A stretch of 64,000 nt of DNA from positions 1-64,000 of the forward strand of contig NZ_BCYZ01000006.1 in NCBI RefSeq assembly GCF_001598455.1. Direction: 5' to 3'. The stretch comes from Sphingomonas pruni NBRC 15498. Lineage in GTDB: Bacteria > Pseudomonadota > Alphaproteobacteria > Sphingomonadales > Sphingomonadaceae. The translations under genes and the position numbers were made by a program. Under the pieces are notes generated by a model that was given only the letters and a program-made list of their open reading frames with translations, had not been told where the DNA came from and did not search any database. This document shows, piece after piece, positions 1,854 through 31,640 of the stretch; within the stretch, counting starts at the first letter, position 1, and the number at the start of each line of letters is the position of its first letter.

Positions 1854-1875
1854 CCCGCTATCCCGGAAAAGGGGG
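1854..1875 (-). promoter_or_regulatory. candidate lux-box-like imperfect palindrome
   Basis: A 22-bp dyad between luxR and luxI. Half sites on the plus strand are CCCGCTATCCC and GGAAAAGGGGG; nine of eleven half-site positions are complementary. Its centre is about 57 bases upstream of the luxI start, a position suited to LuxR activation. It does not match a published sphingomonad lux box that I can recall, so the call rests on symmetry and position only. Confidence 0.35.
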
Positions 1876-1878
1876 ATG

Positions 1879-2640
1879 TCAGCGCCGGGCGATGTCGGCG
1901 AAGCTGATCGTCCCGTCGAATAAAGCGTGGATGATGAGCGATGTTCGCTTCTGTACGCCGTACCGCTCACAGGCCTGCCTGATATGTTGTGCGACGGTCT
2001 CCTCGCTGATCCCCAGGATCACGCTGATCTCCCAGTCGCTTTTGCCGCGCGCTGCCCAGATCAGGCAATCACGCTGCCGGTCGGTCAGCCGCGACCCCGC
2101 GCCGGGCCTGCTGCTGCGCGCCGACGGGCGCACCTGCCAGACGCGGCGCGCCGCCTCGAAGGCGAAGGCGCCGACCAATTGCGTGAGCGCAAGATTGTCC
2201 GGCGGCGCGCGCCGGTCGGCCGCCATCGCGAACGAACACGATCCGGTCGCCTCGCCGGGCACGTTCGCCGGGATCGTGACTCCCGTGCCGATCCCATGGT
2301 CCTTGGCCCGTGCGAGGATTCCACGATCCCGCGGCGTCAGCGGGATCATCAGCGGGACGTTGTGCCAGGAAAAGCCGAGCGCTGTCTGCTGGCTGGCGCG
2401 GTGGATCGGGTCGGCGGCGGCCAGGCCTTCGCGATCGAAATAGTCGACCCAGCGATCAGGATAATTGTGCAGCCGTATCGTCGAGCCGGCCGCCGCCCTG
2501 AGGTCGACATGATGAGTGAGCGCGAAATATTCATAGCCCAACGATGCCGTGATCTCGCCGAGTATCGCTTCCAGATCGGCTGGACTGTTCGCGCCCGTGA
2601 CGAACTCGATAAACCGGGCCAATGCGTTTCCTATGCCCAT
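1879..2640 (-). CDS. luxR: LuxR-family quorum-sensing regulator
   Basis: A 253-residue two-domain regulator. The N-terminal half is the autoinducer-binding domain, with the conserved series W-x3-Y, D-P and W in DRWVDYFDREG, AAADPIHR and FSWHNV. The C-terminal part is the LuxR helix-turn-helix (LTDRQRDCLIWAARGKSD, then ISEETVAQHIRQACERYGV). The frame stays open up to 2766, but the ATG at 2640 gives the standard family length and puts the ligand domain at the N terminus, so I use it. It sits directly upstream of luxI in the same direction, the arrangement expected for a signal receptor and its synthase. The second half of the family LTxRExE motif is altered here (RQRD), a mild departure. Confidence 0.93.
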   Translation of the reverse strand: MGIGNALARFIEFVTGANSPADLEAILGEITASLGYEYFALTHHVDLRAAAGSTIRLHNYPDRWVDYFDREGLAAADPIHRASQQTALGFSWHNVPLMIPLTPRDRGILARAKDHGIGTGVTIPANVPGEATGSCSFAMAADRRAPPDNLALTQLVGAFAFEAARRVWQVRPSARSSRPGAGSRLTDRQRDCLIWAARGKSDWEISVILGISEETVAQHIRQACERYGVQKRTSLIIHALFDGTISFADIARR

Positions 2641-2849
2641 GAGGCACACCAGCGTCGGGAGGCGTCTCAAGCCGCCTTCGTCCCCGACGCCGTCCTTTCC
2701 CTGACCGCGCGCCCAATCTGCCGGTTCTCGCAACGGCGGAAGGACGCGGTTGAAAAGCGGGGACATTTTATCGATTCTCTGGAGGCAATCAAATCCGCTT
2801 CGGACCTAATTGGCGGGTTTCGCCGCACTTTGTGCAGCGTTCGCGGATA

Positions 2850-3645
2850 ATGGCGCACGAAGCGGGCGAGAATGGCTGGCGAGATGCTGCGCGCTATCGC
2901 CCGCTGGCGGGCGTCGATCGTGCCGGGCTGATGTGGGAATGGCTGCGCCGCGATCCCGGCTATATTGCCTGGTATGCGCGTGCCAGCGAGGTCACTCGCG
3001 GCGTTGACGCACTTCCGCGCGGCGCGCTGGCCTGGGGGCTTCACTTTCGCCGAGGATCCGGCGATCGCCGCCCCCCAGGCGCGGCTGATCTGGCATGCCG
3101 ATCTCGATCCCGGCACGTTGGCGGTCGAGGCCCGGCCCGCCGCGCGGGGTGACCCAAACGCGATCGACCCTGCGAAGCTGCGCGTCTGGTTGATCGCCGT
3201 CGCCGATAAGGATGGCTGCGAACATGCAGTGATCAGCGATGGCTGGCGCCACATCCGCTTCGATGTCGAGGCAGGCACCTTGTCGGCCGGCCCGGTGATA
3301 TTGCACTATCGGATCGAGGGCAGCCTTTCGGCGCGGCCCAAATTGTTGCCGCTCAGGCGGCTGGTGGAATTTTCGCTGCACCGCCAGTTCCGGCGTTCGC
3401 TCTATCCGCCCGATCCACGTATCGCGCGCTGGCTGACCGCGCTGCAGGTCCATGACGGTTTGACGGCTGGCGCCAGCCAGCGCGAGATCGGCGAGGCGCT
3501 CTATGGCATCGAGCGCGTGACGGCGGAGTGGGACGGGGCCTCGGACTCGCTCCGCTCGCGGGTCCGGCGCCTGGCGGGCGAGGCTCGGCGACTAGCGCGC
3601 GGCGGTTACCGGCTCTTGATGCGGCGCAGAGGTCAGAGCGTATAG
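2850..3645 (+). pseudogene. DUF2285-domain protein, broken by a +1 frameshift
   Basis: The first part (from the ATG at 2850) reads WRDAARYRPLAGVDR...WEWLRRDPGYIAWYARAS, the N-terminal domain typical of this family in sphingomonad conjugative elements. It then runs WGLHF and leaves the conserved sequence. The next frame continues exactly with FAEDPAIAAPQARLIW and the DUF2285 C-terminal half, ending at 3645. Removing one T from the TTT at 3045-3047 joins them as WGLHFAEDP, the expected family reading. The protein is usually thought to be a DNA-binding regulator of the element, but its role is not established. A real mutation or a sequencing indel would look the same. A downstream start at 2965 could still give a partial product. 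Confidence 0.8.
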
Positions 3646-3665
3646 GCGATGCCGGCCCGCCTCCG

Positions 3666-4619
3666 TCAGAAACAGGGCAGCGCGATCCGTACGACCAAAT
3701 CGCCATTATTATCATCCGCATAGTCGACCGTACCGCCCGAGACCGCGATCAGCCGGTCGATCAGGCCAAGGCCCTGGCTGCCGTCGCGTGAAGCGCCTAG
3801 CCGGGTTGGTTCGCGCCAGATCAGGCGAAGCATATTGTTTTCGGTTACGCCGTCGATCCCGACCGGCTTACCATGCTTGAGCGCGCCATATTTGAGGCTG
3901 TTGGTGGCGAGCTCACCAAAGGCGAGCGCGAGCGCCTGCATCGGGACCTGGGCGAGCCGGACGTCCGGAACCGTGCCGAAGCGCAGCAACGCCTCGTCGC
4001 CATAGGCCTTGGCGAGGAGCGGGACAATGTCGGGAAGACGGTTCTCGCGCGCCGGGTCAAGCAGCAGGTCCTGGACCTGGCCAAGCTGCGCGAACCGCTC
4101 AGCGACCGCACGCGCGAAGAGCCGATGCTCGGGCTGCGACCGTGCGGCCATCGTCACGATCCCGGCAGCGATGGTCATCGCGTTGCGCAGCCGGTGGCGC
4201 ATCTCGGCGCCGATCGCGGCGGCGCGTTCGCGTTCGGTGGTTTCCGCGGTGATGTCCCGCGCAACCGTCAGGAAGGCGGCGGCACCGGCGGAAGCGATCG
4301 GGGCCAGCGTCACGTCCCACCAGCGCGTTTCGTCATCGGGTCCCCGGCGCGGCGCGGTAAAGCGTACCGCTGTCCCAGCGCGCGCCGTACCGAGCGCGTC
4401 TTCGAGATCTGCGCGGCGATCGGCCGGCCAGCGGTCGATCCAGCGTTGACCGACCAGCGCTGCGGGGGCACTCAACTCCATCGTCCGGAGGCTCTCGCGA
4501 TTAACGAACAGGATGCGTCCTTCGCCATCGAGCAGCTCGATGCAGTCATGGGTCTGGTCGAGCAGCGCCGACAGTAACGCAGGTTGGCTGTCGACCAACG
4601 ATTCGATCAGGTCTGCCAT
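3666..4619 (-). CDS. PAS-domain HWE-family sensor histidine kinase
   Basis: A soluble 317-residue kinase with no membrane segment. Residues about 10-130 form a PAS sensor domain (HDCIELLDGEGRILFVNRE, then the PAC-like WWDVTLAPI...LTVARDIT). The phosphoacceptor box is EMRHRLRNAMTI; the ATP-binding part has the N-box ELATNSLKYGALK, the WRE triplet that gives HWE kinases their name, and GLGLIDRLI. Start chosen at 4619 (MADLIES). HWE kinases are common in alphaproteobacteria and often sense light or general stress; no LOV cysteine motif is seen, so the signal is unknown. No response regulator lies beside it. Its place next to the DUF2285 gene suggests it is element cargo or lies near the element border. 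Confidence 0.9.
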   Translation of the reverse strand: MADLIESLVDSQPALLSALLDQTHDCIELLDGEGRILFVNRESLRTMELSAPAALVGQRWIDRWPADRRADLEDALGTARAGTAVRFTAPRRGPDDETRWWDVTLAPIASAGAAAFLTVARDITAETTERERAAAIGAEMRHRLRNAMTIAAGIVTMAARSQPEHRLFARAVAERFAQLGQVQDLLLDPARENRLPDIVPLLAKAYGDEALLRFGTVPDVRLAQVPMQALALAFGELATNSLKYGALKHGKPVGIDGVTENNMLRLIWREPTRLGASRDGSQGLGLIDRLIAVSGGTVDYADDNNGDLVVRIALPCF

Positions 4620-4718
4620 GCCTGGACCTCCGCACGATCTTGGCAATTGTCAGGACCTAGCACATCGCGCGGCGGAAAACCTCCCGGCCGATTTGCCCCA
4701 GCCCGGCGACTCGACCTT

Positions 4719-5204
4719 TCAGGGCGCTCGCTCGAGCCGCGGATCGTAGAGCCATTTGCGCACCTTGCACGCGGCGATGCCGACCGCATCGGGGTGGGCG
4801 GGGTTGATCAGGACGTTGTGCTCCTCGGGTACGATCACCGAAGGGACCAGCAGCAGTGCCGAACTTTTGGCAGCGGCCCAGGCGGAGCCGAATGCGATGC
4901 TGACCCGGCCGCACGGCTCGGCGTCCCAGCCCACCGCGAGCGAGCTAGCGGTTGCGACCTGTGCCGCCGCCCAGACGGGGTCGGGGATCGTGATCTCGAC
5001 CAGGTAGCGGTTGAGCGGCAGGCCGCCGGCATTCAGATGGACGATCGTCTCGAGGCAGGCGAGCGCGCGGCTCGTCGCGCCATAGACCATCGCCACGCCC
5101 TTGTCGTTCCAGCGGCCGCCCGTGTTTCGGGCACCGGTGCCGGACAGGTCGTCGGCCTCATAGTCCTTTGTGTCGGTGGCGATCCGCCAGACCGACAAGC
5201 TCAC
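4719..5204 (-). CDS. RES-domain toxin (ParT/MbcT-like)
   Basis: A 161-residue RES-domain protein, named for conserved Arg, Glu and Ser. The motifs are GTGARNTGGRWNDKGVAMVY near the N terminus, ALACLETIVH, and a later Ser/Gly-rich strand. Characterised members degrade NAD or modify a metabolic enzyme by ADP-ribosyl transfer, which stops growth. The start is a GTG at 5204 that overlaps the antitoxin stop by four bases (GTGA), so toxin translation depends on antitoxin translation. Length agrees with the family. Which of the known activities it has cannot be told from sequence. Confidence 0.9.
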   Translation of the reverse strand: MSLSVWRIATDTKDYEADDLSGTGARNTGGRWNDKGVAMVYGATSRALACLETIVHLNAGGLPLNRYLVEITIPDPVWAAAQVATASSLAVGWDAEPCGRVSIAFGSAWAAAKSSALLLVPSVIVPEEHNVLINPAHPDAVGIAACKVRKWLYDPRLERAP

Positions 5205-5680
5205 GCATAGGCTCCGCTCTGGATCTGGGCGAGCGCCTGGGCGACCAGGGCCTGACCTTCCATCGTGTCGAGCAGGTCGATCGGCTTGCCGCCGCCGAGC
5301 GCCGGCAGCGGTTCGCGCAGCCAGCGCGACAGCCATTCGGGGGCATCGAAGCCTTCGGCCGATCCGGACTCCTCGATCATCGCTTCGAGTTGGCCGACCA
5401 GCTTGGCCAGGCCGATCACCCGTTCGCTGTCCTCGGTCGACAGCAGCTCGTTGCGCGCCGCCTTCTTGTTCACCGTCGCGGTCTTGAGGTTGAGCGCATC
5501 GAGCAGGACCCGCTGGTCGAAATGCAGCTCGCTGATCAGCAGCTTGGCTTTGGCGGCAGGGACACCGGCCTTGATGACGTCGATCCGGTCGCTGGGAGAG
5601 GAGCGGTAGATGTCCACATACACGAACGCGGGAGCGGTTTCCTCCTGCGGCTTGCGCTGCGCGATAGCGGGTTGTGGCAT
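5201..5680 (-). CDS. Xre/MbcA/ParS-type antitoxin
   Basis: A 159-residue partner of the RES toxin. The middle is helical and Xre-like, and the C terminus has the toxin-binding region of this antitoxin class: LSTEDSERVIGLAKLVGQLE, then EGFDAPEWLSRWLREPLPALGG and KPIDLLDTMEGQALV, ending in a helix close to the toxin start. The gene comes first in the pair, as is usual for RES systems. A promoter region with repeated TGAGCA elements lies just upstream, so the protein probably represses its own operon. Assignment rests on the C-terminal motif and the gene order. Confidence 0.88.
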   Translation of the reverse strand: MPQPAIAQRKPQEETAPAFVYVDIYRSSPSDRIDVIKAGVPAAKAKLLISELHFDQRVLLDALNLKTATVNKKAARNELLSTEDSERVIGLAKLVGQLEAMIEESGSAEGFDAPEWLSRWLREPLPALGGGKPIDLLDTMEGQALVAQALAQIQSGAYA

Positions 5681-5692
5681 TTGCGGTTCCTT

Positions 5693-5719
5693 TGAGCATT
5701 TATGTGGCTCATATGAGCA
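5693..5719 (-). promoter_or_regulatory. probable autoregulatory operator of the toxin-antitoxin operon
   Basis: Two TGAGCA elements lie 21 bases apart (5693-5698 and 5714-5719). The second is part of a perfect 12-bp palindrome, GCTCATATGAGC, at 5707-5718. The site begins 13 bases upstream of the antitoxin start, so a bound repressor would block the promoter. Two helical turns between the repeats suit two repressor dimers on one face of the DNA. Confidence 0.55.
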
Positions 5720-6614
5720 GAGCTTTCAAGGGCGCCAGGTTTTCGATCGGGCAGATCGCTCACGTAAAGCATCGCGGATCGCCCGCCTCGTCGCCAGGCA
5801 ACCGGCGCCAGGGCTGTGGAAGGCGCGGTGCAAGAAGGCGGGCCGACAGGGCAGGAGGCAGCGTTTCCCGCCAACGGATGGCGGCCGGAAATTCCGGTTC
5901 TTTGGATGGCGTATACGCTGGTAAGCGCGCTCGATTGTGGTGGTTGATCTTACGAAAGGCGGCGCCTCGCGCGGGAGGTTGCCCGCGCGACCGCCGCTCT
6001 ATGGCTCGGGCCAGGCCCTCGCCCCCGAGCCCCGGACGGGTCTCGGCCTAGCGGTGACGATCGGACTGGCGCGGGTCAGCGGTCGCTGACCCTGGCGGTG
6101 CGGGGCTGACGACGCACACTGCCGGATCGCTATGCGACCGGACAGGGTGCGGCGCTTGATAGCGGCCCCGCGGCACACCGCCTCGCGGCCGGGCGGCGCG
6201 CCCGGTTTTCGAGCCGGACGCCATGCCCCGTCCGGATCTCGAAAGCCCGGTTCGACGCCGCTGATCCGTCCGGCTCGTTGCGGAGTACCGTATTTGTAGC
6301 GCCGGCGGCGGGCCGCCGGCGCGGTTATACGCGGACGCCGCGCGGCTGCGCGGCGGCGCTGTTGGTGGCCTCTCCCGGTCAAGCGGGAATGGGCGGCGCT
6401 TCCTGCTAGGCGCGGCCGCGAGGTCCGCAAGCCGCGTGCCGCGGCTCCTCCACTCGCGTTCCGGCCCTGCGCCACCCCGTCGCGCGGAGGCGACGGGGAC
6501 CCCGGACTTGGGTGCGGGCCTCGCTCGTTGCCGCGCCTCTCCGGTCGCTCGGTGCCGCCCACCCCCGCTTTTTGCGGGGAGGCCATGAGCGGGGCGGGAA
6601 AGGAGTCACGCGTC
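5720..6614. other. intergenic region without a convincing gene
   Basis: About 0.9 kb of GC-rich sequence between the toxin-antitoxin promoter and ardC. Open frames exist on both strands but show biased low-complexity Arg/Ala/Pro composition and no recognisable domain. It holds an 8-bp GC-only inverted repeat, GCGCCGGC at 6299-6306 with GCCGGCGC at 6315-6322, which could be a terminator stem or a protein-binding site. The ardC ribosome binding site AGGAG is at 6601-6605. Confidence 0.5.
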
Positions 6615-7709
6615 ATGCCTGCCAACCGCCGTTCCGCCCGGGGCCAGTCCGGGATTGCGACCAGGTCGACCCGGTCGATCAAGCCGATCGACCCAGGCCA
6701 GGCGATCAAGTCAACCGGGAAAGGCAGGTGCGCCAAGACCCCCGAGGCGCACGGCGCGCGCGCGTCGGGGCGGTTCGGACAGGCCCGCCACGGGACGGCG
6801 GCGCCGCGCGCGTCGCTCTATGAAGCAGTAACCGGGCGGATCATCGCCGAACTCGAGGCCGGACGATTGCCATGGGTGCAGCCATGGGGAAGCGGGGCGG
6901 CGACCGCCGGTCTGCCCGTCAACGCCGCGACCGGGCGCGCTTATTCGGGGGTCAATATCCTCATCCTGTGGAGCGCGGTGATCGCGCGCGGCTATCCCGC
7001 ACAGCGCTGGCTGACGTTCCGCCAGGCCGCGACGTTGGGCGGGATGGTCCGGCGCGGCGAGCATGGCGTCACCGCCGTCTATGCCGACCGGTTCACGCCT
7101 GAGGCCGAGAAAGCGCGCGCCGAGGCGGAGGGCGACGCGCCTGGCACCGTCCCGTTCCTCAAGCGCTTCACCCTGTTCAATGTGGCGCAGTGCGACGGGC
7201 TCGACCCTGCTTTGTCGCTGCCGCCCGCGCCGGTCGATCTGTCCCAACAGGTACCCGCCGCCGAACAAGTGATCGCCGTCAGCGGGGTCACGTTCCGGGT
7301 CGGCGGCGACGAGGCCTTTTACAGTCCGGCACGCGACATGGTGGTCGTGCCGCCGCAAGCCGCGTTCTTCGAGCCGATCAATTATTACCGGACCTGTCTC
7401 CACGAACTGACCCACGCCACCGGTCATTCCGCGCGGCTGGGCCGCGACCTGTCGAACGGCTTCGGCACGCCAGGCTATGCCCGCGAGGAACTGATCGCCG
7501 AAATGGGATCGGCGTTCCTGTGCGCAGCGCTCGGCATCGTGCCCACCGTGCGCCATGCCGATTATCTTGGGCATTGGCTCGACCTGCTGCGCGGCGATGC
7601 CCGCGCGATCTTCCGTGCCGCGTCGGCAGCCTCGCGTGCCGCCGACTGGCTGCTCGCACGCGTACCGGCCGCATCACCTGTCGCGTCGTCCGATGAGTTG
7701 GCGCAGTGA
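6615..7709 (+). CDS. ardC: ArdC-like antirestriction protein (ssDNA-binding metallopeptidase fold)
   Basis: A 364-residue protein with the two ArdC domains. The N-terminal single-stranded-DNA-binding domain contains LYEAVTGRIIAELEAGRLPW and PWG, then NAATGRAYSGVNILILW. The C-terminal metallopeptidase-like domain has the zinc motif HELTHATGH with a third ligand in REELIAEMGSAFL. ArdC-type proteins coat entering plasmid DNA and shield it from restriction enzymes during conjugation. Start chosen at 6615, nine bases after AGGAG; an in-frame ATG at 6585 is less well placed. The N-terminal 60 residues before the domain are basic and low in complexity. It leads a run of element maintenance genes and overlaps the next one by four bases. 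Confidence 0.9.
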   Translation: MPANRRSARGQSGIATRSTRSIKPIDPGQAIKSTGKGRCAKTPEAHGARASGRFGQARHGTAAPRASLYEAVTGRIIAELEAGRLPWVQPWGSGAATAGLPVNAATGRAYSGVNILILWSAVIARGYPAQRWLTFRQAATLGGMVRRGEHGVTAVYADRFTPEAEKARAEAEGDAPGTVPFLKRFTLFNVAQCDGLDPALSLPPAPVDLSQQVPAAEQVIAVSGVTFRVGGDEAFYSPARDMVVVPPQAAFFEPINYYRTCLHELTHATGHSARLGRDLSNGFGTPGYAREELIAEMGSAFLCAALGIVPTVRHADYLGHWLDLLRGDARAIFRAASAASRAADWLLARVPAASPVASSDELAQ

Positions 7710-13334: not shown

Positions 13335-13386
13335 TCGATCGATCCGCCGGTTGTGCTCAGGCACAACCCCGTTAGGATTCACGCGA

Positions 13387-14283
13387 ATGAAAACCGACCT
13401 CGACCATCTGCCCGACCGCAAACGCCGCGACCTCGATCGCATCGTTGAGATCCTGTTCGCCGAGTTCGAGGACGCGACCAGCCTCGCCACCCAAAAATGG
13501 AAGAAGCAGGGCCGGATCCTCAAGGTGATCCTCTACGGTTCCTATGCGCGCGGCGATTGGGTCGCCGATCCGGTCGGCGGCTATTTCTCGGACTATGATC
13601 TGCTCGTCGTCGTCAGCGACGAGCGGCTGACCGATACGCTCGATTATTGGGCCAAGGCCGACGATCATCTCCGCCGCGAATATGGCATCGCCAAACGACT
13701 CTCGGCGCCGGTCAATTTCATCGTCCACAGCCTGAAGGACGTGAACGACCAGCTCGCCCGCGGGCGGCCGTTCTTCGTCGATCTCGTGCGCGACGGGATC
13801 GCGCTTTATGAGCTGGACGGCCATCCGTTCGACAGGCCTCAGCCACTCGATGAGGCTGCCGCGCGCGCCGAGGCGCAGACGCATTTTGATCAGTGGTTCG
13901 AAAGTGCAAGTACGTTTCTGGGTGTGGCGAAATTCGCGATTTCCCAAGGTAAGCACAACAACGCCGCCTTCCAGCTGCACCAAGCTGCGGAGCATTCCTA
14001 CCACACGATCCTGCTCGTGCTGACGCTCTACAGCCCCAAATCGCACAAGCTCAATTTCCTGCGCGACCAGGCCGAGGACGTCGCGCGCGATCTCATTCCG
14101 GTCTGGCCGCGCGACACCAAGTTCGCGCGGCGCTGCTTCGAATTGCTGCAGCAGGCCTATGTCAACGCTCGCTATTCGCCGCACTACAAGATCACACGCG
14201 AAGAGCTCGACTGGATCGTCGAGCGCGTCGAATTGCTCCAGGCGGCGGTGAAGGCGATCGCGGAAAAAGCGACTCGCCGCTGA
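13387..14283 (+). CDS. MNT-HEPN fusion protein (nucleotidyltransferase plus HEPN)
   Basis: A 298-residue two-domain protein. Residues about 1-130 form a minimal nucleotidyltransferase: LYGSYARGDW (GSxAxG signature) followed by DYDLLVVVSD with the paired catalytic aspartates. Residues about 165-290 form a HEPN domain (AAFQLHQAAEHSYHTILLVLTLYSPKSHKLNFL, then NARYSPHYKIT where R and H could be the RNase pair). MNT and HEPN are usually two proteins, a modifying antitoxin and an RNase toxin; here they are one chain. The Arg-His spacing is slightly short of the usual R-x4-6-H, so nuclease activity is uncertain. It lies between DUF736 and a damaged DUF4238 gene. Confidence 0.85.
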   Translation: MKTDLDHLPDRKRRDLDRIVEILFAEFEDATSLATQKWKKQGRILKVILYGSYARGDWVADPVGGYFSDYDLLVVVSDERLTDTLDYWAKADDHLRREYGIAKRLSAPVNFIVHSLKDVNDQLARGRPFFVDLVRDGIALYELDGHPFDRPQPLDEAAARAEAQTHFDQWFESASTFLGVAKFAISQGKHNNAAFQLHQAAEHSYHTILLVLTLYSPKSHKLNFLRDQAEDVARDLIPVWPRDTKFARRCFELLQQAYVNARYSPHYKITREELDWIVERVELLQAAVKAIAEKATRR

Positions 14284-17024: not shown

Positions 17025-19004
17025 ATGAACGAGGATGACGACTTCACCCCCCGGCTCGGCAAGCAACGCAGCCTTGGTGGCGGCAAACGCGCACGCCGCT
17101 ATCTCGCCACCGTGGCTGCCGCCGCCGTCCGATCGGCGGAGAAGGGGGCGATCCGCAATTGCCGATTTGATGGCAGCCGCATCGGTCGCGGCGCGAGCAT
17201 CGGTCGGCTGCTCTCCAGCCGCGATCGGCTGGCTGCGTTCCGCGCGCGGCGCGCGATCGTCAAGACCAGGCTGGTGCGGCTTGGGGGCAAGGGCCTAGCC
17301 GCCGCGCGGGCGCATCTGCGTTACATCCAGCGTGATGGGGTTACTCGCGAGGGCGCGCCCGGTCAGCTCTATTCGGCTGGGCGCGACGACGCCGACGGCA
17401 GGGCGTATCTCGAACGTTGCTACGGCGACCGCCATCAGTTCCGCTTCATCGTCTCAGCCGAGGACGGGCCGGAATATTCCGACCTCAAGCCTTTCATCCG
17501 CCGGCTGATGGGCAAGATGGAGGAGGATCTCGGCACCAGGCTCGACTGGGTCGCGGCGGATCATTTCAACACCGCCCATCCACACAGCCACATTATGCTG
17601 CGCGGTGTCGATGATCGCGGCAAGAATCTGATCATCGCCAGGGAATATATCGCGCATGGCATCCGCGAGCGTGCCGCCGAGCTAGTGACGCTCGATCTCG
17701 GCCCTCGCACCCGGCAGGAAATCGAAGCATGGCTGCGCCACGATTTCGGCGAGGAGCGCTTGACCGCGATCGATCGCCAGCTGATCAGCTCGATGGACGC
17801 AGGTCGCATCGTCAGCTCGGCCGACCGCGATCCATCCCAGCAGTCGCTGCGCGCCGGCCGTCTGCAGAAGCTGGCGAGCATGGGACTCGCCGAAAATGTC
17901 GGCGGCGGAAATTGGCGGCTTGCCGATGATCTGGGGAAGACGCTTCGCGAGATCGGCGAGCGCGGCGACATCATCCGCACAATGCAACGCGAGCTGACAG
18001 TGCGGAGGTTAGAGCGACCGTGGATCGGACGCAGCGCAATCAGCACTGGGGAGGCCGATCCTGAACTAGTCGTCGGGCGCGTCATCACGCGCGGGCGCGC
18101 TGACGAATATCATGACCGCCACTATCTGCTGATAGATGGCCTGGATGGGCACGCTCATTACGTGGACATTGGCAGGGGCGACATGGTCGACCCGATTCCT
18201 GAGAACGCTATAGTCCGGGTGACAGCACGCACCGTTGCCGTTCGCCACACTGACCGAGTAGTGGCTGAGGTTGCCGCGGCCAATGCCGGACGCTATTCGA
18301 TCGATCGGCATTTACGACATAATCCATCTGCGACTCAGGCGTTAGCCGAGATGCATGTTCGGCGGCTGGAAGCATTGTGGCGCGCCCGGGCAGGTGTTGA
18401 ACGAGAACCGGACGGCACATGGTCGATCGCCGCCGACCATGTCGATCGTGCTGCTGCTTACGAGGCACGTCGGCATCGCGATCGGCCGGTGAAAGTAGAA
18501 ACGCTGTCGGCGTTGCCACTCGACCAGTTGCACCGCGCCGATGCCGTCACCTGGCTCGATCGCGAGCTGGCGTCGAGCAATCCCACGCCAATCCGTGACG
18601 CCGGCTTCGGCCGCGAGGTGCGCGATGCGCTGGCGGCGCGTCGACAATTGTTGGTCGACCAGCAGCTCGCCGAGAGCGAGAGGGGTAGCGGCCGGCTTCG
18701 GACGAGCGCCTTAGCCACACTCCAACGTCGGGAATTGCTTCGCGTCGCGGGAAAGCTTTCCGACGAACTTGGGAAGAGCTTTGCCGAGGCTAAAAGCGGA
18801 GACAAGATCGAGGGCCGGCTGGTCCGTCGTCTTGATCTGATCAGCGGGAGGTTCGCGCTCGTCGAGAAAAGACACGAATTTACGTTGGTGCCGTGGCGGC
18901 CCACTCTGCAAAACCAGCTAGGTCATGAAGTCGGCGGTATTGTGCGCGCGGATGGAATCAGTTGGAGCTTCGGTCGCCAACGAACTGGCCCCGAAATTTC
19001 ATGA
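17025..19004 (+). CDS. conjugative relaxase (VirD2-like, DUF3363 type)
   Basis: A 659-residue protein that should nick the origin of transfer and lead the strand through the channel. The N-terminal relaxase part carries the metal-binding triad H185-P-H187-S-H189 (NTAHPHSHIMLRG), preceded by the conserved LRYIQRDGVTREGAPGQLYS and FRFIVSAEDG blocks. The long C-terminal part (RIVSSADRDPSQQSLRAGRLQKLASMGLA onward) matches the DUF3363 extension of these relaxases. Start at 17025 is chosen because the upstream frame lacks coding character and two inverted repeats lie just before it. The coupling protein gene, usually close by, is 4.8 kb away because of inserted cargo. Confidence 0.92.
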   Translation: MNEDDDFTPRLGKQRSLGGGKRARRYLATVAAAAVRSAEKGAIRNCRFDGSRIGRGASIGRLLSSRDRLAAFRARRAIVKTRLVRLGGKGLAAARAHLRYIQRDGVTREGAPGQLYSAGRDDADGRAYLERCYGDRHQFRFIVSAEDGPEYSDLKPFIRRLMGKMEEDLGTRLDWVAADHFNTAHPHSHIMLRGVDDRGKNLIIAREYIAHGIRERAAELVTLDLGPRTRQEIEAWLRHDFGEERLTAIDRQLISSMDAGRIVSSADRDPSQQSLRAGRLQKLASMGLAENVGGGNWRLADDLGKTLREIGERGDIIRTMQRELTVRRLERPWIGRSAISTGEADPELVVGRVITRGRADEYHDRHYLLIDGLDGHAHYVDIGRGDMVDPIPENAIVRVTARTVAVRHTDRVVAEVAAANAGRYSIDRHLRHNPSATQALAEMHVRRLEALWRARAGVEREPDGTWSIAADHVDRAAAYEARRHRDRPVKVETLSALPLDQLHRADAVTWLDRELASSNPTPIRDAGFGREVRDALAARRQLLVDQQLAESERGSGRLRTSALATLQRRELLRVAGKLSDELGKSFAEAKSGDKIEGRLVRRLDLISGRFALVEKRHEFTLVPWRPTLQNQLGHEVGGIVRADGISWSFGRQRTGPEIS

Positions 19005-19138
19005 ACGGAGTTGGCCGGGTCCGGACGGGCGGCTTTTGGAGTAATTGCCTCCGGCTGCGCTAGAATGCATGCAAGACGGCTTGATCTTGCTGCATCCCTG
19101 TGTTTCTACGACACTATCTGATAAGGAGACAGGTGGCG

Positions 19139-19246
19139 GTGAAGATGCGCTCGGACACGATCGAAAAGTTATACCTGTTCGCATTACTGCCGGTTGTGGC
19201 CATCGTAGGGACTATAGTCTGGACGTGGTTCTTGGAGCAGCAATGA
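19139..19246 (+). CDS. 35-residue single-span membrane micro-protein
   Basis: A short frame V-K-MRSDTIEKLYLF, then a hydrophobic segment of about 20 residues (ALLPVVAIVGTIVWTWF) and the end LEQQ. An AAGGAG ribosome site at 19123-19128 lies 10 bases before the GTG at 19139. The stop is one base from the ATG of the FkbM methyltransferase, a strong sign of coupled translation. It could anchor or regulate the methyltransferase at the membrane. It could also act only as a leader peptide. Confidence 0.6.
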   Translation: MKMRSDTIEKLYLFALLPVVAIVGTIVWTWFLEQQ

Positions 19247-19247
19247 C

Positions 19248-20030
19248 ATGGTCCAGGTATTAAAAAGTGAAACCCCGGTTTCGATGCTCCGACACATCGC
19301 CGAAGTGGCGACGCGGCGGCTGATCTGGAAGTTGCATCTTCCTAGGCGATACGGGCGCCTTCCAATCTATGTCTCGCCCGCCAACGCACTGAAATTCCTG
19401 AAGCCAGGGGATGGGAAATTCGATCCCTTCTTGCTGTGGCTCGCCGATAATTTCGTCAAATCAAATTCTGTGGTGTGGGATATCGGCGCGAATGGCGGAG
19501 TATTTTCGATGCTCGCGTCCAGCAAGGCAAAGGCCGTAGTTGCTTTCGAGCCGGACCCATTCAACATTTCGCTGATCCGCCGCACGATAGGAGCCAATCC
19601 TCAGAGCGCGATCCAGCTAGTACCAAAAGCCCTATCGGAGGCGGCGGGCGAGACCGTGCTTAATATCCCTTCTCGCAGCCGAAGCGTTTCCTCAATTGGT
19701 GAAATACCGATGGGATATATGTCGGGCGGCTTGCGCGAATCGATGCGAGTTGAAATGACCACCGCCGACGCATGCCTTGATAACTACCCTGCACCGACCT
19801 TCATCAAATGCGATATCGAGGGTGCCGAGGCGATGATGCTCAGGGGTGCCCAGAGGCTGTTGACCGAGGCGCGACCGACTGTCTGCATGGAGGTACGGCT
19901 TGGAACACGCGAGGAGGTAGCAAATCAGTTCACACGCCATGGCTACCGAATGTTCACGGCCGATGATGCGATGACGCCATTATCCAGTCTGACCGATATA
20001 GAGGAAGTTGTCGCCGTTCCACAGGATTGA
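19248..20030 (+). CDS. FkbM-family methyltransferase
   Basis: A 260-residue SAM-dependent enzyme. Motif I is VVWDIGANGGVFSMLAS; VVAFEPDPFN holds the ribose-binding acidic residue; FIKCDIEGAEAMMLRGAQ is the signature FkbM catalytic-side motif. Many FkbM enzymes O-methylate sugars in surface glycans. It follows the membrane micro-protein by one base and is separated from an acyltransferase by IS debris; together they suggest envelope or glycan modification carried as cargo. The acceptor is unknown. Confidence 0.88.
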   Translation: MVQVLKSETPVSMLRHIAEVATRRLIWKLHLPRRYGRLPIYVSPANALKFLKPGDGKFDPFLLWLADNFVKSNSVVWDIGANGGVFSMLASSKAKAVVAFEPDPFNISLIRRTIGANPQSAIQLVPKALSEAAGETVLNIPSRSRSVSSIGEIPMGYMSGGLRESMRVEMTTADACLDNYPAPTFIKCDIEGAEAMMLRGAQRLLTEARPTVCMEVRLGTREEVANQFTRHGYRMFTADDAMTPLSSLTDIEEVVAVPQD

Positions 20031-20342
20031 ACGAGTCCAGCGATTTGTATAGGGCGTCGTACGCTGGCTAAGGGTTGATTCCACCGGCGAGCTTGGCCGC
20101 GAAAGGGGCAGCCAGCTTGGCCGCATCGGTATGGAGCGGCTTCGCGAAGCGTGAGGGACGTGCCGGCGTGGTGGCCCGACAAGGCAGCTTGACACTGTTT
20201 AAATTCCAACCTCAAAAGCAGTGCGGCTCCTGTGACGTGGGGCAGGCTGCTATAGCGGTTTTGATCGGATCTGAATCGTTTTCTGACTCAGGGGGTGCGA
20301 TTTTCTGAGTCAACCTGCCCGGTGGACAGGAGGACAGCGATT

Positions 20343-20850
20343 ATGGGCAAGGCCTGTGCGAACGATTTGCGCGAACGCGTGGTGACGGCGGTGGACGGCG
20401 GAGCGCCATGTCGCGCGGAGGCGTTGCGCTTTGGCGTGGCGCAGATTCCAGTGATCAAATGGGTGGCGCGCTATAAGCGGGGGGATGTGTCAACGGGATC
20501 ATCCCGTGGTCGGAGACGCTCACCGCTTCATGCGCATTGCCAGTGGCTGCCAAGACACCGGGCTGACGCTGGCCGATATGCTTGAGCGGCTGCTGGCGGA
20601 ACATGGGCTCTCGGCCGGCATCAGTGGGATCTGGCTGTGCTGCCAGCGTGAGGAATCGGCTCAAAAAAAACGCTGCTACCATCCGAGCAAGCCAGGCGCG
20701 ACGTCGCGCGCAGGCGAGCGAGTTGGCAGCGGTATCGGGGTCGGATCGCCGCTGAGCGACTGGTCTTCATCGACGAAACATGGGTGAAGACCAACATGGT
20801 GCGTACGTATGGCTGGGGCGGCAAAGGCCAGCGCGTAGATGCGCGGTCTT
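20343..20850 (+). pseudogene. IS630-family transposase remnant
   Basis: Pieces of an IS630 transposase in different frames: an N-terminal helix-turn-helix (GKACANDLRERVVTAVDGG, then RFGVAQIPVIKWVARYKRG) from 20343; a middle block (ASGCQDTGLTLADMLERLLAEHG) from about 20540; and the catalytic segment RLVFIDETWVKTNMVRTYGW near 20755-20815, in yet another frame. The sequence stops at 20850, before the remaining DDE residues. A TATAGCGG sequence near 20251 may mark the left end. The copy is not functional. Confidence 0.75.
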
Positions 20851-21841
20851 AGCGGCGGAAAAACTGATCGGTGATATTCAGAGTGTCCCCTTGCGCATGT
20901 TAACTCTCCGGCCTGTTTGCCGCTGATCCGCGCGGGCGGTTTTAAACGCCAGTCTAGTTCCGCGCGCAGAGTCGCAGGAACGTGACAAGCGGGATTGTCG
21001 GGCAAATCCGTCGCCGCCCGATGTAGCGCCTCCAGACGGCTTGCGTCGGCCTCCTGACGGGGCACGCGGATACGGTTCAAAAATACGATCGGCGATCTGG
21101 CCAGATAGGCGAATCCAACGCTGCGATGGATAAGCTTGCGCCCGGCGACGCTCGCGGGTCCCGCGGCGTGATTCAAGCCAGTCCCGGTGACTTCTGCTTT
21201 CCTGCGCGCCGCCGGCACGCATGCCTTTCGCAACGCGACCTACTGTCCGGTTCGTGTGCTTGCGGTGATACGCCGCGCCGCGACGCCCGCCGTTTCTCGA
21301 AGATATTGACGAGAGGTTGGTGGCGAAATCGACGCGACCGTCGTCGTTGATTTGGCCGACCGCAACGGCATCAACTCCGCGGCCCGACCAATCACACCAA
21401 TCGGCATCCGGTTGCCCCGTTTCGCGGTTTGACGTGAGCCGCAGGCGTCATCATTGTGACGGCAAACGGCGAGCTCGTTGGGCGCCTCGGCGCCCTCACA
21501 GCCAAATTGTATGCCAGGAGCCGTATCCAAGGACGGAGATTCCACTTCGTTGGTCAAAAACAGCCTTCGCCTCGGTGGCGCGAGCGCCAAACGGCACCTA
21601 CCATTACTTGGGCGCAAGGCGGGGGTAATTGCCGCATGGTGTCTGGTGCGCTAATCGACTGCAATGGGATCGGCGAAAACTAAATTGCGGTCGTCTGGAT
21701 CGCGGCCGCGATCGCACTCCGCGCGAGGACGCTCATCACATCGCTGGGCTCCAGCAGCCTACAGGCCTGTAGGCCTTGAGCGGCGAAGCTGGGAAGGCCG
21801 TTGGCCTAGCGGCGACCAGCATAAAACCAATTTAAGCGGAG
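20851..21841. other. decayed region between IS remnant and acyltransferase
   Basis: About 1 kb with no intact gene. Fragments with some protein-like character occur on both strands: a minus-strand stretch around 20910-21170 (RIRVPRQEADASRLEALHRAA) and a plus-strand stretch near 21315-21430 (EIDATVVVDLADRNGINSAA). None is long enough or familiar enough to name. It is probably debris of inserted genes. Confidence 0.5.
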
Positions 21842-22918
21842 ATGCCGGTGAGCGAGCGCGCGACAAACCCCGAGGCGAGGGCGGCTATCTCTCCGCATTT
21901 CGTACGGGGGCTCGATAGTTTCCGGTTCATCGCCGCAAGCGTGGTCGCCGCCAGCCACGGCGGTTGGATTCCGTTCGACAGAATTTTCGGTGCGGTTCAC
22001 GGCCCGCTGAAGGGCGTTGCCGGCATCTGGAATAGCCTGCCGAATGGCACACTTGCGGTATGTGTGTTCTTCTTCATCTCCGGCTTCTGCATCCACTACC
22101 CGAATATCGGCAAGGAGAAGGTGCCGGTCGGATCGTTCCTGATCAAGCGATTCGTCCGAATCTGCGTGCCGCTCCTCGCCGTGATCGCGCTCGCTCACGC
22201 CGCGGGCTCGCAGTATGTCGACGGGTTAGATGCGGTCCTATGGAGCGTCTATTGCGAACTCGCCTATTACGCACTCTACCCGCTGCTTTTCGGGGTGATC
22301 CATCGGCGGATGCTCCGGGCGACCGCGGTGAGCATGATGATCAGCGCCTTGGTCCTTGCCTTGCGACCGTTAGCAGCCCGCCCGTCGGATTTCGGCATCC
22401 TTACTTTTCTGTTCTGCGCGCCGCTGTGGCTCCTCGGCGCCCATTTGGCCGAGCGCTACCGGGACGGATCTCTGTTCGTCGCTAAGTTGCCCTCAGTGTG
22501 GCTGCTCAGGGCCGCCTTGCCGGTCTGCGCAGTGGCAGCGACGTTCCTCTTTTATCATGCGCCGATCCGCGTTCCATTGACTTGGTCGGTCGTCGCATTT
22601 GTGCCGGCAGGCTATTTATGGTTGGCTGTCGAACTGCAGCGCCTCACCAGTCATGGTGTCAGCGAGCAGCTCGAACGGCTCGGACTCGCGGCTTATTCGA
22701 TGTACTTGACACACCGCTTTGCGCTCACCTTTTTTGCGGACCACCTCACGTGCCGGTCGACTATTCTATCCTATGGTTTCCAAGCAATTGCGATTAGCAT
22801 CGCGACCTTCACTTTCTACCGGCTTGTCGAGAAACCTTCGCATCGGCTGGCCAAGAAGCTCGGCGCGGCGTGGGATGCAGCAGTCGGATACAGAAACATC
22901 CCGATCGGCAAGCAATAA
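21842..22918 (+). CDS. membrane-bound acyltransferase (OafA/YrhL, acyltransferase 3 family)
   Basis: A 358-residue integral membrane protein with about ten hydrophobic spans. The N-terminal motif RGLDSFRFIAASVVAASHGG carries the conserved Arg and His of acyltransferase-3 proteins; VFFFISGFCIHY and KRFVRICVPLL follow in the expected order. These enzymes transfer acyl groups, often acetyl, to sugars of O-antigen, capsule or exopolysaccharide. Together with the FkbM enzyme it would alter surface glycans of the host. It is an insertion between the relaxase and the coupling protein. Confidence 0.88.
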   Translation: MPVSERATNPEARAAISPHFVRGLDSFRFIAASVVAASHGGWIPFDRIFGAVHGPLKGVAGIWNSLPNGTLAVCVFFFISGFCIHYPNIGKEKVPVGSFLIKRFVRICVPLLAVIALAHAAGSQYVDGLDAVLWSVYCELAYYALYPLLFGVIHRRMLRATAVSMMISALVLALRPLAARPSDFGILTFLFCAPLWLLGAHLAERYRDGSLFVAKLPSVWLLRAALPVCAVAATFLFYHAPIRVPLTWSVVAFVPAGYLWLAVELQRLTSHGVSEQLERLGLAAYSMYLTHRFALTFFADHLTCRSTILSYGFQAIAISIATFTFYRLVEKPSHRLAKKLGAAWDAAVGYRNIPIGKQ

Positions 22919-23062
22919 TGAGCTCGGCTCTTAACCGCCAAGATCCTGACCCGGCACCTTTTCTGCAGATTAGGTGTTATCGGCGCTCTGGTCGCGTCGC
23001 GGACCCGATACGGAGATAGGCATGCTCTTCGTCTGCCCTTTGGGCCGCCAGCCGACATTTTG

Positions 23063-23155
23063 CTATTTCTTCCGTCGGAACGCCCAGACCAGCGACTACA
23101 GGCCACCGATGAGCGTTGCCAAGGCGAGCGGCAGCGAGGGATCGAAGACAATCAT
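23063..23155 (-). pseudogene. tiny single-span protein with in-frame amber codon
   Basis: On the minus strand, ATG at 23155 begins MIVFDPSLPLALATLIGGL, then TAG (23096-23098), then in the same frame SLVWAFRRKK and a final TAG at 23063-23065. Without the first stop it would be a 30-residue protein with one membrane span and a basic end, a plan seen in small bacterial membrane proteins. One base change (CAG to TAG) would explain the stop. Confidence 0.35.
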
Positions 23156-23362
23156 CCGAATCTCCCGGAGAGGGGCTGGGTACCTGTTTTGTTTAAGGTG
23201 ACATAGCGCGCTTCGCGGATTGCCGCGCGACCAGATCGACAAAGATGGGCCGATCCGCTCTGCAGGATTGCCAGAGCTGCACCGTGCCACATTGTTTCAC
23301 GTCGAAGATCCCTGCGTGCGAGGTGACCCCGCTCGATCCATCGGGGCCCCTGCGACACGGTC

Positions 23363-23389
23363 GGTAATTTAGGTAATTTCGGTAATTTC
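23363..23389. repeat. three tandem 9-bp repeats
   Basis: GGTAATTTA, GGTAATTTC and GGTAATTTC follow one another without spacing. The AT-rich block stands out in GC-rich surroundings, 426 bases before traG. It could be a protein-binding array or a slippage product. Confidence 0.7.
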
Positions 23390-23814
23390 GCTGCCAGCGA
23401 CGCCTACCCTATATCCTGCCGCCAGCGGAAAACGTCGAAAATGTTGTCCGCTCACGTCAAGCGCACCCTCAAACTCGATCGCTCGCGCCTACTCGGGCCG
23501 AATGGAACACGATACAAGGTCCACCTCGTCACCCCGCAGGACCTCCGGAAAATGACGAAGATGACACCGATGCGAAGGCTTGCACTCGCCTGATCCAAAG
23601 CCGGAAGCCGCTCGCCAGCCAATCCAAGCCCCAGATAAATCGTCGCCGATTGGGCCTCCTTCAACAAAATGGGGGCGTAATCCAGCCATTGAGTCGTACC
23701 GAAGTCCCCAGAAGCGTCGCGCGCGGCATTAGCGATGCTCTCGCGCAAGCGGGTTAAACAGGCGATTTTGGTTCTCGCGTTCGCACCTCGATTTTGTGCC
23801 GGCGGGAGATCCGC

Positions 23815-25842
23815 ATGACCCCTACCAAACTCCTTATCGGCCAGACCGTTATTGTCTTCGCCATCGTGCTGGCGGGCATCTGGTTCGCGACGCAATGGGC
23901 AGCCGGAGCGTTGGCCTATCAATCTGAACTAGGCTCGCCATGGTTCCACGCCTTCGGCCGTCCGGTATACTGTCCTTGGGCGCTGTTTGGCTGGTGGTTT
24001 CATTACGATGCTTATGCGCCGAAGGTATTCAATGACGCCGGGTTGATTGCCGCTACCAGCGGCTTCGTTGGCTGCGGCTCTGCGGTGTTTGGCTCGCTCT
24101 GGCGCGCGCGCCAACGTCGCGACGTCACGACCTACGGGTCCGCACGCTGGGCGACAGAGGCCGAAATCCGGCGCGCTCGACTATTCGACCTGCGAGGCGT
24201 CTTCCTCGGGTCGACCGGTCGACGCTATCTTCGTCACGACGGTCCCCAGCATGTCATGGCATTCGCTCCGACCCGATCGGGCAAGGGCGTGGGCCTTGTC
24301 GTGCCGACTCTGCTCGGCTGGACCGGCTCGGCGGTCATTCACGACATCAAAGGCGAGAACTGGTCCCTGACCGCCGGCTGGCGGTCGCGATTTTCACATT
24401 GCCTGCTATTCGATCCGACCGACGCTCGGTCGGCGCGGTACAACCCGCTGCTCGAGGTTCGCCGCGGCGAGCATGAGGTGCGCGACGTACAGAACATCGC
24501 CGATATCCTGGTCGATCCCGAAGGTGCGCTCGAACGGCGCAACCATTGGGAAAAGACCAGCCATTCGTTGCTGGTAGGCGCGATCCTCCACGTTCTGTAC
24601 GCGGAAGAGGAGAAGACGCTGGCGCGCGTCGCGACCTTCCTGTCCGATCCGCAGCGCCCGTTCACCGCCACGCTCCGGCGGATGATGGAAACCAATCATC
24701 TCGGCACGCCGGACGCGCCAGTCGTCCATCCGGTGGTCGCCTCGGCGGCGCGCGAAGTGCTCAACAAGTCGGAGAATGAGCGCTCGGGCGTGCTGTCGAC
24801 TGCAATGAGCTTCCTCGGCCTTTATCGCGACCCGACCGTTGCCGAGGTTACCTCGCGCTGCGATTGGCGGATTGCCGATCTTGTCGAGGGGCGGGCGCCC
24901 GTTTCGCTCTACCTCGTCGTGCCGCCCTCGGACATCAGCCGTACCAAGCCACTGGTGCGGCTCGTGCTCAACCAGATCGGCCGGCGCCTGACCGAGCAAC
25001 TGCATGCGGAACGCGGTTTGCGCCGTCACAAGCTGCTCATGATGCTCGACGAGTTTCCGGCGCTCGGCCGGCTTGATTTCTTCGAGACCAGCCTCGCCTT
25101 CATGGCCGGCTACGGTGTCCGCGCCTTCCTCATCGCACAAAGCCTCAACCAGATCGAGAAAGCGTATGGCGAGCATAACTCGATCCTCGACAATTGTCAT
25201 GTGCGCGTCGCGTTCGCGACTAATGATGAGCGCACCGCCAAGCGCATCTCGGAAGCTCTTGGTACCGCGACCGAGCAGCGTGCGATGCGCAACTATGCCG
25301 GCCATCGTCTCGCGCCGTGGCTCGCACACGTAATGGTCAGCCGTCAGGAGACGGCGCGGGCCCTGCTGACGCCAGGCGAAGTGATGCAGCTCCCGTCTGC
25401 CGAAGAACTGGTCCTGGTCTCCGGCATGCCGCCGATCCGTGCGCAAAAGCTGCGCTATTTCGAAGACGCCAATTTCAACCGGCGTGTGCTGCCGCCGCCC
25501 GCTTTGGCCGCCGGCGACTATGCCGATCGTCCTGAGCCACGGAGAGACGACTGGCGCGGGTGCCTGGCGGCGGCGGACGCGCGCCTGGCGGGCGAGGACG
25601 AACACGCCGACAAGGGCGGGCCGTCCGGCGGGCTCGAACAGGCGCGCCATCCGGGACAGGAATTGCCCGCGCCGGCGGTTGAGGCGCCGGTCCTCGACCC
25701 GCTCGGGCTCGGCGATGACGAGCCAGATGCGGCCGGCGACAAGCGGGCGATGGATCAGGCGCGCGCGCTCGGCACGGCACGGACCGTCTACGCCATCGAT
25801 ACCGGGGCCATCCGTCCCAACGACCTGCAGCTGGACTTCTGA
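23815..25842 (+). CDS. traG: TraG/VirD4-type coupling protein
   Basis: A 675-residue ATPase that links the relaxase-DNA complex to the secretion channel at the inner membrane. Two N-terminal membrane segments (VIVFAIVLAGIWFATQW and the GLIAATSGFVGCG region) precede the ATPase. Walker A is APTRSGKGVGLVVP, Walker B LLMMLDEFPALG, and GVRAFLIAQSLNQIEKAYG is the conserved TraG segment. The C-terminal 90 residues are acidic and Pro-rich. Start at ATG 23815 has a GGGAG ribosome site. It heads the row traG-RHH-trbB-C-D-E. Confidence 0.95.
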   Translation: MTPTKLLIGQTVIVFAIVLAGIWFATQWAAGALAYQSELGSPWFHAFGRPVYCPWALFGWWFHYDAYAPKVFNDAGLIAATSGFVGCGSAVFGSLWRARQRRDVTTYGSARWATEAEIRRARLFDLRGVFLGSTGRRYLRHDGPQHVMAFAPTRSGKGVGLVVPTLLGWTGSAVIHDIKGENWSLTAGWRSRFSHCLLFDPTDARSARYNPLLEVRRGEHEVRDVQNIADILVDPEGALERRNHWEKTSHSLLVGAILHVLYAEEEKTLARVATFLSDPQRPFTATLRRMMETNHLGTPDAPVVHPVVASAAREVLNKSENERSGVLSTAMSFLGLYRDPTVAEVTSRCDWRIADLVEGRAPVSLYLVVPPSDISRTKPLVRLVLNQIGRRLTEQLHAERGLRRHKLLMMLDEFPALGRLDFFETSLAFMAGYGVRAFLIAQSLNQIEKAYGEHNSILDNCHVRVAFATNDERTAKRISEALGTATEQRAMRNYAGHRLAPWLAHVMVSRQETARALLTPGEVMQLPSAEELVLVSGMPPIRAQKLRYFEDANFNRRVLPPPALAAGDYADRPEPRRDDWRGCLAAADARLAGEDEHADKGGPSGGLEQARHPGQELPAPAVEAPVLDPLGLGDDEPDAAGDKRAMDQARALGTARTVYAIDTGAIRPNDLQLDF

Positions 25843-30469: not shown

Positions 30470-31021
30470 TCAAAGGGTGGCAGGAACGATGTTTCGATCA
30501 AAGGCATAATGCAGGCGCACGCAGCCGCGATCGAGCGCCTCGGCGGACAGCAGCCGCGGGTGCGCTCGGACCCCGGTGGCGGGGAATAAAGGGCGCCCGC
30601 CGCCAATCAGGTCCGGCATAACGTAGATCTCGATCTCGTCCAGCGCGCCTCGCTCAATAAAAGCCATCTGCAATTGCCCGCCACCGAGGATCCAGACGTC
30701 GCCGTCACTCAATGCCCGGAGTTCTTCGACAAGCGCGTCCACGTCGGTTCGAACTGTGAGCGGGCCCTTCGGCGTCACAATGGGTCGCGATGTGACCACG
30801 AGCACACGCTGGTCTCCATACGCCCATGGCGTGCCGTCTTTCTCAAGGAAGTCGTAGGTGCTGCGGCCCATGACCACGGTCCTGATACGCTGAAGAAAGA
30901 CGCGATAATCGTGCTCGCCGAGGTCGAGCCCCTCGTGCGCGAACAGCCAGTCGAGCCGATCGTCCACGGTCGCAATATATCCATCGAGGCTGGCTGCTAT
31001 ATAACCCAAGATCCTCGCCAC
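30470..31021 (-). CDS. dihydrofolate reductase-family (RibD C-terminal-like) protein
   Basis: A 183-residue reductase-fold protein: ARILGYIAASLDGYIATVDDRLDWL, VVMGRSTYDFL, LVVTSRP, and the NADPH loop VWILGGGQLQMAFIERG, ending in the usual LIGGGRPLFP. Most members of this group have no known substrate. The start is a GTG at 31021 with AAGGAG seven to eight bases before it. It is divergent from the TetR gene with a 20-bp dyad between them, so the TetR protein probably represses both. Confidence 0.88.
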   Translation of the reverse strand: MARILGYIAASLDGYIATVDDRLDWLFAHEGLDLGEHDYRVFLQRIRTVVMGRSTYDFLEKDGTPWAYGDQRVLVVTSRPIVTPKGPLTVRTDVDALVEELRALSDGDVWILGGGQLQMAFIERGALDEIEIYVMPDLIGGGRPLFPATGVRAHPRLLSAEALDRGCVRLHYAFDRNIVPATL

Positions 31022-31038
31022 CCAGCAACTCCTTGAAT

Positions 31039-31058
31039 ATAAACGAACGATCATTTAT
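31039..31058. promoter_or_regulatory. probable TetR operator
   Basis: ATAAACGAACGATCATTTAT is a 20-bp dyad with eight of ten half-site positions complementary. It lies in the 46-base gap between the divergent reductase and TetR genes, ten bases before the TetR start. An AT-only palindrome ATTTATAAAT at 31053-31062 overlaps it. Confidence 0.5.
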
Positions 31059-31067
31059 AAATTTAAT

Positions 31068-31640
31068 ATGGGAAGAAGCAAGACTGTTTCGGATGTCGCC
31101 CTGCTTGACCTACTGCTGCCGGTATTGCGGAACGGCGGGCCGGCGGGGCTGACCTTTGCAAAGGCGTCGAACGCGGTGGGGCTGGCGGCCGCAAGCCTCG
31201 TCCAGCGCTTTGGAACGCGGGAGGCCATGATCGTCGCTGTGCTGGGGCATGCTTGGGACAGCCTGATCGCGAAGACAGCGACGCTCGACGCGGAGCTGCC
31301 GTCGACGCCACAAGGGGCCATCGAACTGCTGCTGCAGCTGCTCCCCGGAGACGAAGCGGACTATGCCGTTGACGACGGCCTGATGCTGTTGCGCGAGGAC
31401 CTCCGCAACACGGTGCTGCGCGCGCGTGGGGCCGCTTGGGGAAAATCGCTCGCGACGGCGCTCGGGCGACGCCTTGCCGATGAACATTCCGAGGCGCAAC
31501 GCCTGGGATGGCAAATGGCGAGCATTTGGCAGGGTGCGCTCATCTGGTGGGCGTTCATGCGCGGCGCCCGGGTCGAGGAGGCCGTCGCGCACAGTCTGGA
31601 GGGTTGGTGCCGGAGCGTCGGCGTGCTCCCTGACGCGTGA
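31068..31640 (+). CDS. TetR/AcrR-family regulator
   Basis: A 190-residue regulator. The N-terminal helix-turn-helix reads LTFAKASNAVGLAAASLVQRFGTREAMIVAVL, which matches TetR proteins with a glycine-containing turn. The C-terminal half is helical and Trp-rich (MASIWQGALIWWAFMRGARVEEAV). It is divergent from the reductase gene. The pair sits inside the trb operon and reads as inserted cargo; it is followed by 274 bases without a gene before trbJ. Confidence 0.88.
   Translation: MGRSKTVSDVALLDLLLPVLRNGGPAGLTFAKASNAVGLAAASLVQRFGTREAMIVAVLGHAWDSLIAKTATLDAELPSTPQGAIELLLQLLPGDEADYAVDDGLMLLREDLRNTVLRARGAAWGKSLATALGRRLADEHSEAQRLGWQMASIWQGALIWWAFMRGARVEEAVAHSLEGWCRSVGVLPDA

Follow-up and report, generated by a model that had tools for sequence, protein, structure and literature searches.

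In a 64,000-nucleotide stretch of Sphingomonas pruni NBRC 15498 DNA (contig NZ_BCYZ01000006.1, hereafter the window) we examined the 4.8 kb that separate the relaxase gene rlxS from the coupling protein gene traG (positions 19005-23795). We propose that this interval is the accessory-gene slot of a Tn4371-related sphingomonad ICE and that it holds two unrelated insertions, an FkbM methyltransferase gene and a membrane acyltransferase gene. The data below establish the slot, the family and the intact reading frame of each gene, the link of the acyltransferase to phages, and the different origins of the two enzymes. The reading that we prefer, and to which we give about an even chance, is that the slot carries a phage-type surface O-acyltransferase that probably alters phage receptors, together with an independently acquired FkbM gene. 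The slot is thus ordinary and its filling unusual; what makes the case of value is a phage-type acyltransferase in a place where defence genes are frequent, together with the survey of the slot.

The rlxS-traG interval is a known variable region

The interval is flanked upstream by an RlxS-type relaxase and downstream by a TraG-trb cluster, the backbone of a Tn4371-related ICE. Both border genes scored above the cut-offs of their models (NF041267 and NF010450), and annotated sphingomonad elements have the same gene order. DNA similarity between elements was confined to the outside of the gap: it ended at the rlxS stop codon and resumed 15 bp before traG (Table 1). By blastn the interior had no backbone similarity to sister elements, and the scattered tblastx matches were noise. 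The micro-protein gene, the FkbM gene one base further on, the acyltransferase gene and the IS630 remnant were all found where the initial annotation had placed them.

Table 1. Features of the rlxS-traG interval and its borders (positions in the window)
Feature	Position	Strand	Evidence
rlxS relaxase (MobA/VirD2 nuclease domain + DUF3363); left border of variable region	17025..19004	+	NF041267 957 bits; PF11843 5.5e-132
Micro-ORF, 35 aa, single-TM, GTG start	19139..19246 (TGA end)	+	Peak 19-residue hydropathy 2.2; AAGGAG, a plausible ribosome-binding site, about 10 nt upstream
FkbM-family SAM methyltransferase, 260 aa, intact	19248..20030	+	PF05050 3e-15; TIGR01444 3e-26
IS630 transposase remnant, frame-broken, 3' truncated	20343..20849	+	tblastx to IS630 transposase of NZ_CP019949.1: 57% over 63 aa, 28% over 64 aa
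Stretch without recognisable gene	20850..21841		Longest reverse ORF has no plasmid match; no DNA match to phage contigs
Acyl_transf_3 (OafA-like) membrane acyltransferase, 358 aa, intact, phage-borne type	21842..22918	+	PF01757 8.5e-18; phrog_3333 1.2e-23
Stretch without recognisable gene	22919..23795		Piece near 23382-23573 about 70% similar to unannotated rhizobial plasmid DNA
traG / VirD4-type coupling protein	23815..25842	+	NF010450 1130 bits; blastn to sister elements begins 23796-23799

The rlxS-traG gap is the already published variable region of Tn4371-type ICEs. Ryan and colleagues described, for Tn4371-like ICEs, a variable region that follows the relaxase and precedes traR/traG and that is a likely insertion hotspot (PMC2789088), and the same region is accessory region 3 of Matsumoto and colleagues (PMC11448139). 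Two of the published types, alphaI and alphaII, lack traR at accessory region 3 and, according to one legend, lack cargo there too (PMC11448139). The sphingomonad elements resemble these traR-less types, yet 29 of 30 hold more than 1 kb in the gap.

The window element shares with the Tn4371 family both the order traF, relaxase (RlxS), variable cargo, traG and trb genes and the variation of cargo from element to element, but it has no recognised LysR traR between cargo and traG; no LysR-sized gene is present in 22919-23795. FkbM and acyltransferase genes are not among the cargo types given for the family (PMC2789088, PMC11448139). Given the missing traR, gene content marks the element as a relative of the Tn4371 family and not a member proper. 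With the ICEMlSymR7A-type RlxS/trb transfer systems it has in common the RlxS relaxase and a trb-type mating apparatus, whereas its cargo is different and no tyrosine integrase was recognised among the window genes scanned, the window starting at a contig end. At the other side chromosomal-type genes come after the DUF2274 gene at 37274, which puts the right end of the element probably at 37.3-37.7 kb.

To place the gap among those of related elements, RlxS homologues were drawn from 299 genomes of the same family, the downstream DNA was taken and the distance to TraG was measured. Thirty sister elements had TraG in reach, a sample that includes four near-identical elements, two with partial TraG matches and one second copy in the genome of the window itself. 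Their gaps ranged from 226 bp to 15,735 bp with a median of about 5.6 kb, and a single gap was shorter than 1 kb. A further 26 loci had no TraG within the fetched DNA, owing to a longer gap, a contig end or gene loss. The 4.8-kb gap of the window is average for sister elements, and the premise of the initial annotation that the relaxase and coupling-protein genes are normally close does not hold.

The slot often houses defence genes

The cargo of the sister elements was surveyed as 102 proteins from 25 gaps, with PADLOC models taken at 1e-10 or better. The PADLOC matches comprised AbiEii, SoFic, a type II methyltransferase, type I specificity and restriction subunits, DruA/DruD, a CBASS cyclase and capP, and the Pfam matches were HipA, Fic, AbiEii and N6_Mtase. 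Single proteins matched DruE of Druantia (2050 bits) and HsdR of type I restriction-modification (1590 bits), and a YhcG nuclease, an Eco57I-like methylase and several NTase-HEPN fusions were also found. In annotated plasmid relatives the same gap held genes for a TIR protein and an accompanying S8 peptidase/ATPase pair, and RES/Xre and NTase-HEPN genes. Judged from these family matches, the rlxS-traG slot is often home to defence and toxin-antitoxin genes, and the survey offers a simple site at which to seek new cargo.

Repeatedly, these ICEs encode a single polypeptide that joins a Pol-beta nucleotidyltransferase domain (N-terminal) to a HEPN domain (C-terminal), and its gene is frequently the final piece of cargo ahead of traG. 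It was located at 13351-14283 (+) of the window, where the gene sits between DUF736 and traF, and at L088:15945-16928, L096:17488-18429, L097:14410-15393 and L104:8783-9712 (domains were scanned for the window, L096, L097 and L104, and L088 was assigned by PADLOC only). Its domain composition is like that of a fused MNT/HEPN protein of the toxin-antitoxin or defence kind.

The acyltransferase is of a phage-affiliated type

Besides its main PHROG match, an O-acetyltransferase family, the acyltransferase weakly matched phrog_6705 (O-antigen acetylase, moron class; 4.6e-5). The N-terminal R..H motif of Acyl_transf_3 is present, with R28 and H39 invariant in a five-sequence alignment. The only close relatives, at 61-65% identity, were on six viral contigs (L304-L309) of a collection that may include host DNA; five of these (L305-L309) could be read as phage, and L304 had no clear phage neighbour. 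Elsewhere the relatives were distant: the best among the 299 family genomes was 37% identical, and plasmid-borne ones reached at most about 35%. A five-sequence profile gave no further match at 1e-40 in 151 genomes of the genus and one match (4e-41, 33% identity) in 327 genomes of the class. Sequenced cultured phages gave no match at E<1e-5.

In L305-L308 the acyltransferase gene stands alone, reverse to the orientation of its neighbours, against a gene of 1009-1030 aa; in L309 the contig stops within the gene, which has the same large neighbour. The gene past this neighbour in L307 matched tail-fibre PHROGs (4e-10; 'host specificity' 2e-7). On the other side of the acyltransferase, L305, L307 and L308 carry holin and endolysin-type genes, assigned through phrog_1356, phrog_315 and PF05838 on L305. 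The spot between a tail-fibre-like gene and holin/endolysin genes is the usual place of lysogenic-conversion genes. Hence the closest relatives of the window enzyme (L305-L309) occupy a phage conversion-gene position, with lysis genes seen where the contig reaches, and its sequence relationships make the acyltransferase a phage-affiliated type. A tree placed it outside the clade of the five viral sequences (97/96), so that transfer could have run either way between phage and ICE. Outside the acyltransferase gene, the window had no DNA similarity to the phage contigs.

The proteins of 975-1030 aa encoded beside the L305-L309 acyltransferases begin MQY.EF.A and gave no match in Pfam or PHROG; they are possibly an undescribed tail fibre.

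The FkbM gene appears to be a separate acquisition

The methyltransferase has the full domain of its family, with the SAM motif WDIGAN and a KCDIEGAE motif, and scored well above the cut-offs (PF05050, 57 bits versus 22.7; TIGR01444, 92.6 versus 37.7). It differs from other family members in that no relative found exceeded about 41% identity to it and in the unique micro-ORF in front of it. The nearest relatives were 35-41% identical; the best (41%, from Tianweitania) came from an alignment-based scan of genome contigs, and a single-protein scan of genome contigs gave no match. Identity to FkbM proteins on plasmids or in cultured phages was at most about 32%. One relative belongs to a gene cluster in the same genus that also has glycosyltransferase-like and asparagine-synthase-like genes, and that of Tianweitania is directly 3' of a glycosyltransferase-like gene (these neighbours were named from sequence, without a model scan). 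The GC content of the FkbM gene, 0.553, was the lowest among the genes compared (rlxS, 0.637; traG, 0.651), as was its codon score among intact neighbours. The lower GC, the chromosomal relatives in glycan clusters and the lone micro-ORF make FkbM and the acyltransferase look like separate acquisitions.

Only one base separates the micro-ORF from the FkbM start, and chance is an unlikely source of it: when the interval was resampled by a Markov model, 0.1% of the resamples had a hydrophobic ORF of 33 aa or longer whose end fell no more than 15 nt from FkbM. This test was chosen post hoc. We rejected a conserved micro-protein-FkbM module, for no comparable hydrophobic small ORF precedes the FkbM relatives examined and no convincing homologue of the micro-protein was found in the 299 family genomes (none at E<0.05). 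The pairing is not conserved.

The IS630 remnant consists of two pieces that correspond to about the first 520 of the 943 bases of a full transposase gene. The suggestion that this insertion sequence brought the cargo cannot be substantiated; the remnant is too decayed, is a single copy and has no matching copy in the genome. A simple scan, by which alphaproteobacterial promoters are poorly covered, found no sigma-70-like promoter in the gap.

Possible roles of the cargo

Phage O-acetylases such as D3 Oac have been reported to alter the O-antigen so that phages cannot bind or adsorb (PMC11436027). The window enzyme resembles such serotype-conversion O-acetylases (for example, those of Pseudomonas phage D3 and of a Shigella phage) in being a membrane acyltransferase with a PHROG O-acetyltransferase match and in having homologues in the phage conversion-gene position beside a tail-fibre-like gene, but it is carried by a conjugative element, and sequenced cultured phages lack a match to it at E<1e-5. 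By this analogy the OafA-type enzyme, if the cargo is expressed, most likely acylates a surface polysaccharide, and the acylation would hide or change a phage receptor, as that by phage O-antigen acetylases does, and so exclude phages. FkbM and its coupled micro-ORF may have been taken from a glycan-type gene cluster, and the enzyme itself probably acts on some sugar or lipid in this envelope and may methylate a sugar there.

A wider proposal, which we advance tentatively and think rather unlikely as a whole, is that a serotype-conversion acyltransferase of phages, possibly along with a glycan methyltransferase, was taken up into the defence-rich slot of the ICE, which now spreads phage resistance through receptor change by conjugation, not lysogeny. 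If the acyltransferase does block phage adsorption, receptor modification would travel by conjugation beside restriction and abortive-infection systems.

The main rival to the preferred reading is that both enzymes are neutral passengers, chance arrivals of little use in an insertion-tolerant slot, now decaying alongside IS630. This we consider a real possibility, although we lean against it. In its favour, about 2.7 kb of the 4.8-kb gap has no recognisable intact gene and the IS630 element is broken; the combination of FkbM and acyltransferase was absent from every other sister gap tested, and FkbM is atypical in GC and codon use. However, the reading frames of both genes are intact and complete, alignments to relatives of 35-64% identity show no broken motif, and both genes are co-oriented with the transfer genes. 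The initial annotation had itself named sister elements without the cargo, and chromosomal copies of both enzymes with other neighbours, as pointing to random insertion. No other gap tested contained FkbM (0/29) or an Acyl_transf_3 gene (0/28, the full match table being examined by eye), and the relatives of both enzymes have other neighbours; on these results the two genes look like independent arrivals in an established cargo slot rather than parts of a conserved module.

The same counts weigh against a role in conjugation, in which the two enzymes would form a surface module, with the micro-protein as the membrane partner of FkbM, that acts in mating-pair choice or in exclusion of sister elements. 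That the micro-ORF is tightly coupled to FkbM, and that the genes lie inside the transfer region, would fit such a module, but the micro-protein is absent before FkbM relatives, the two enzymes are unlike in GC and in relatives, and the slot is one of general cargo with no fixed transfer role. We regard this explanation as very improbable, and nothing was found in support of the proposed influence on mating-pair choice. The earlier idea of surface-modification cargo is strengthened for the acyltransferase by the PHROG O-acetyltransferase match and by the phage relatives, and relatives of FkbM are found in or next to glycan-type clusters; the conserved module was rejected.

Small molecules are among the substrates of enzymes in both the FkbM and the Acyl_transf_3 families, and Pfam matches cannot predict substrates, so that the two enzymes could act on a secondary metabolite, a membrane lipid or some other small molecule or lipid, and not on surface polysaccharide. 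The neighbourhoods of the relatives argue otherwise: FkbM relatives adjoin glycosyltransferase-like and asparagine-synthase-like genes, and those of the acyltransferase, itself a PHROG O-acetyltransferase match, lie beside phage tail-fibre genes. Such substrates therefore seem improbable to us.

Other features of the element and the window

The same genome has a second RlxS element (G000:C10:16018-18003), the relaxase of which is 48% identical and the rlxS-traG gap of which is 1.5 kb. The left part of the window element (1190-7709) encodes a LuxI-type autoinducer synthase, a LuxR regulator, a PAS/HWE histidine kinase, a RES-domain protein and an ArdC-type antirestriction protein. A second cargo site, at 30470-31640, interrupts the trb cluster between a trbE-like gene and the next trb gene (31915) and contains, by sequence only, a reverse RibD/dihydrofolate-reductase-like gene and a TetR-like gene. 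A dTDP-amino-sugar-type cluster occupies 43825-49598, beyond the likely right end of the element and 21 kb from the acyltransferase; it comprises an RmlB-like dehydratase, a DegT aminotransferase and an FdtA/hexapeptide frame.
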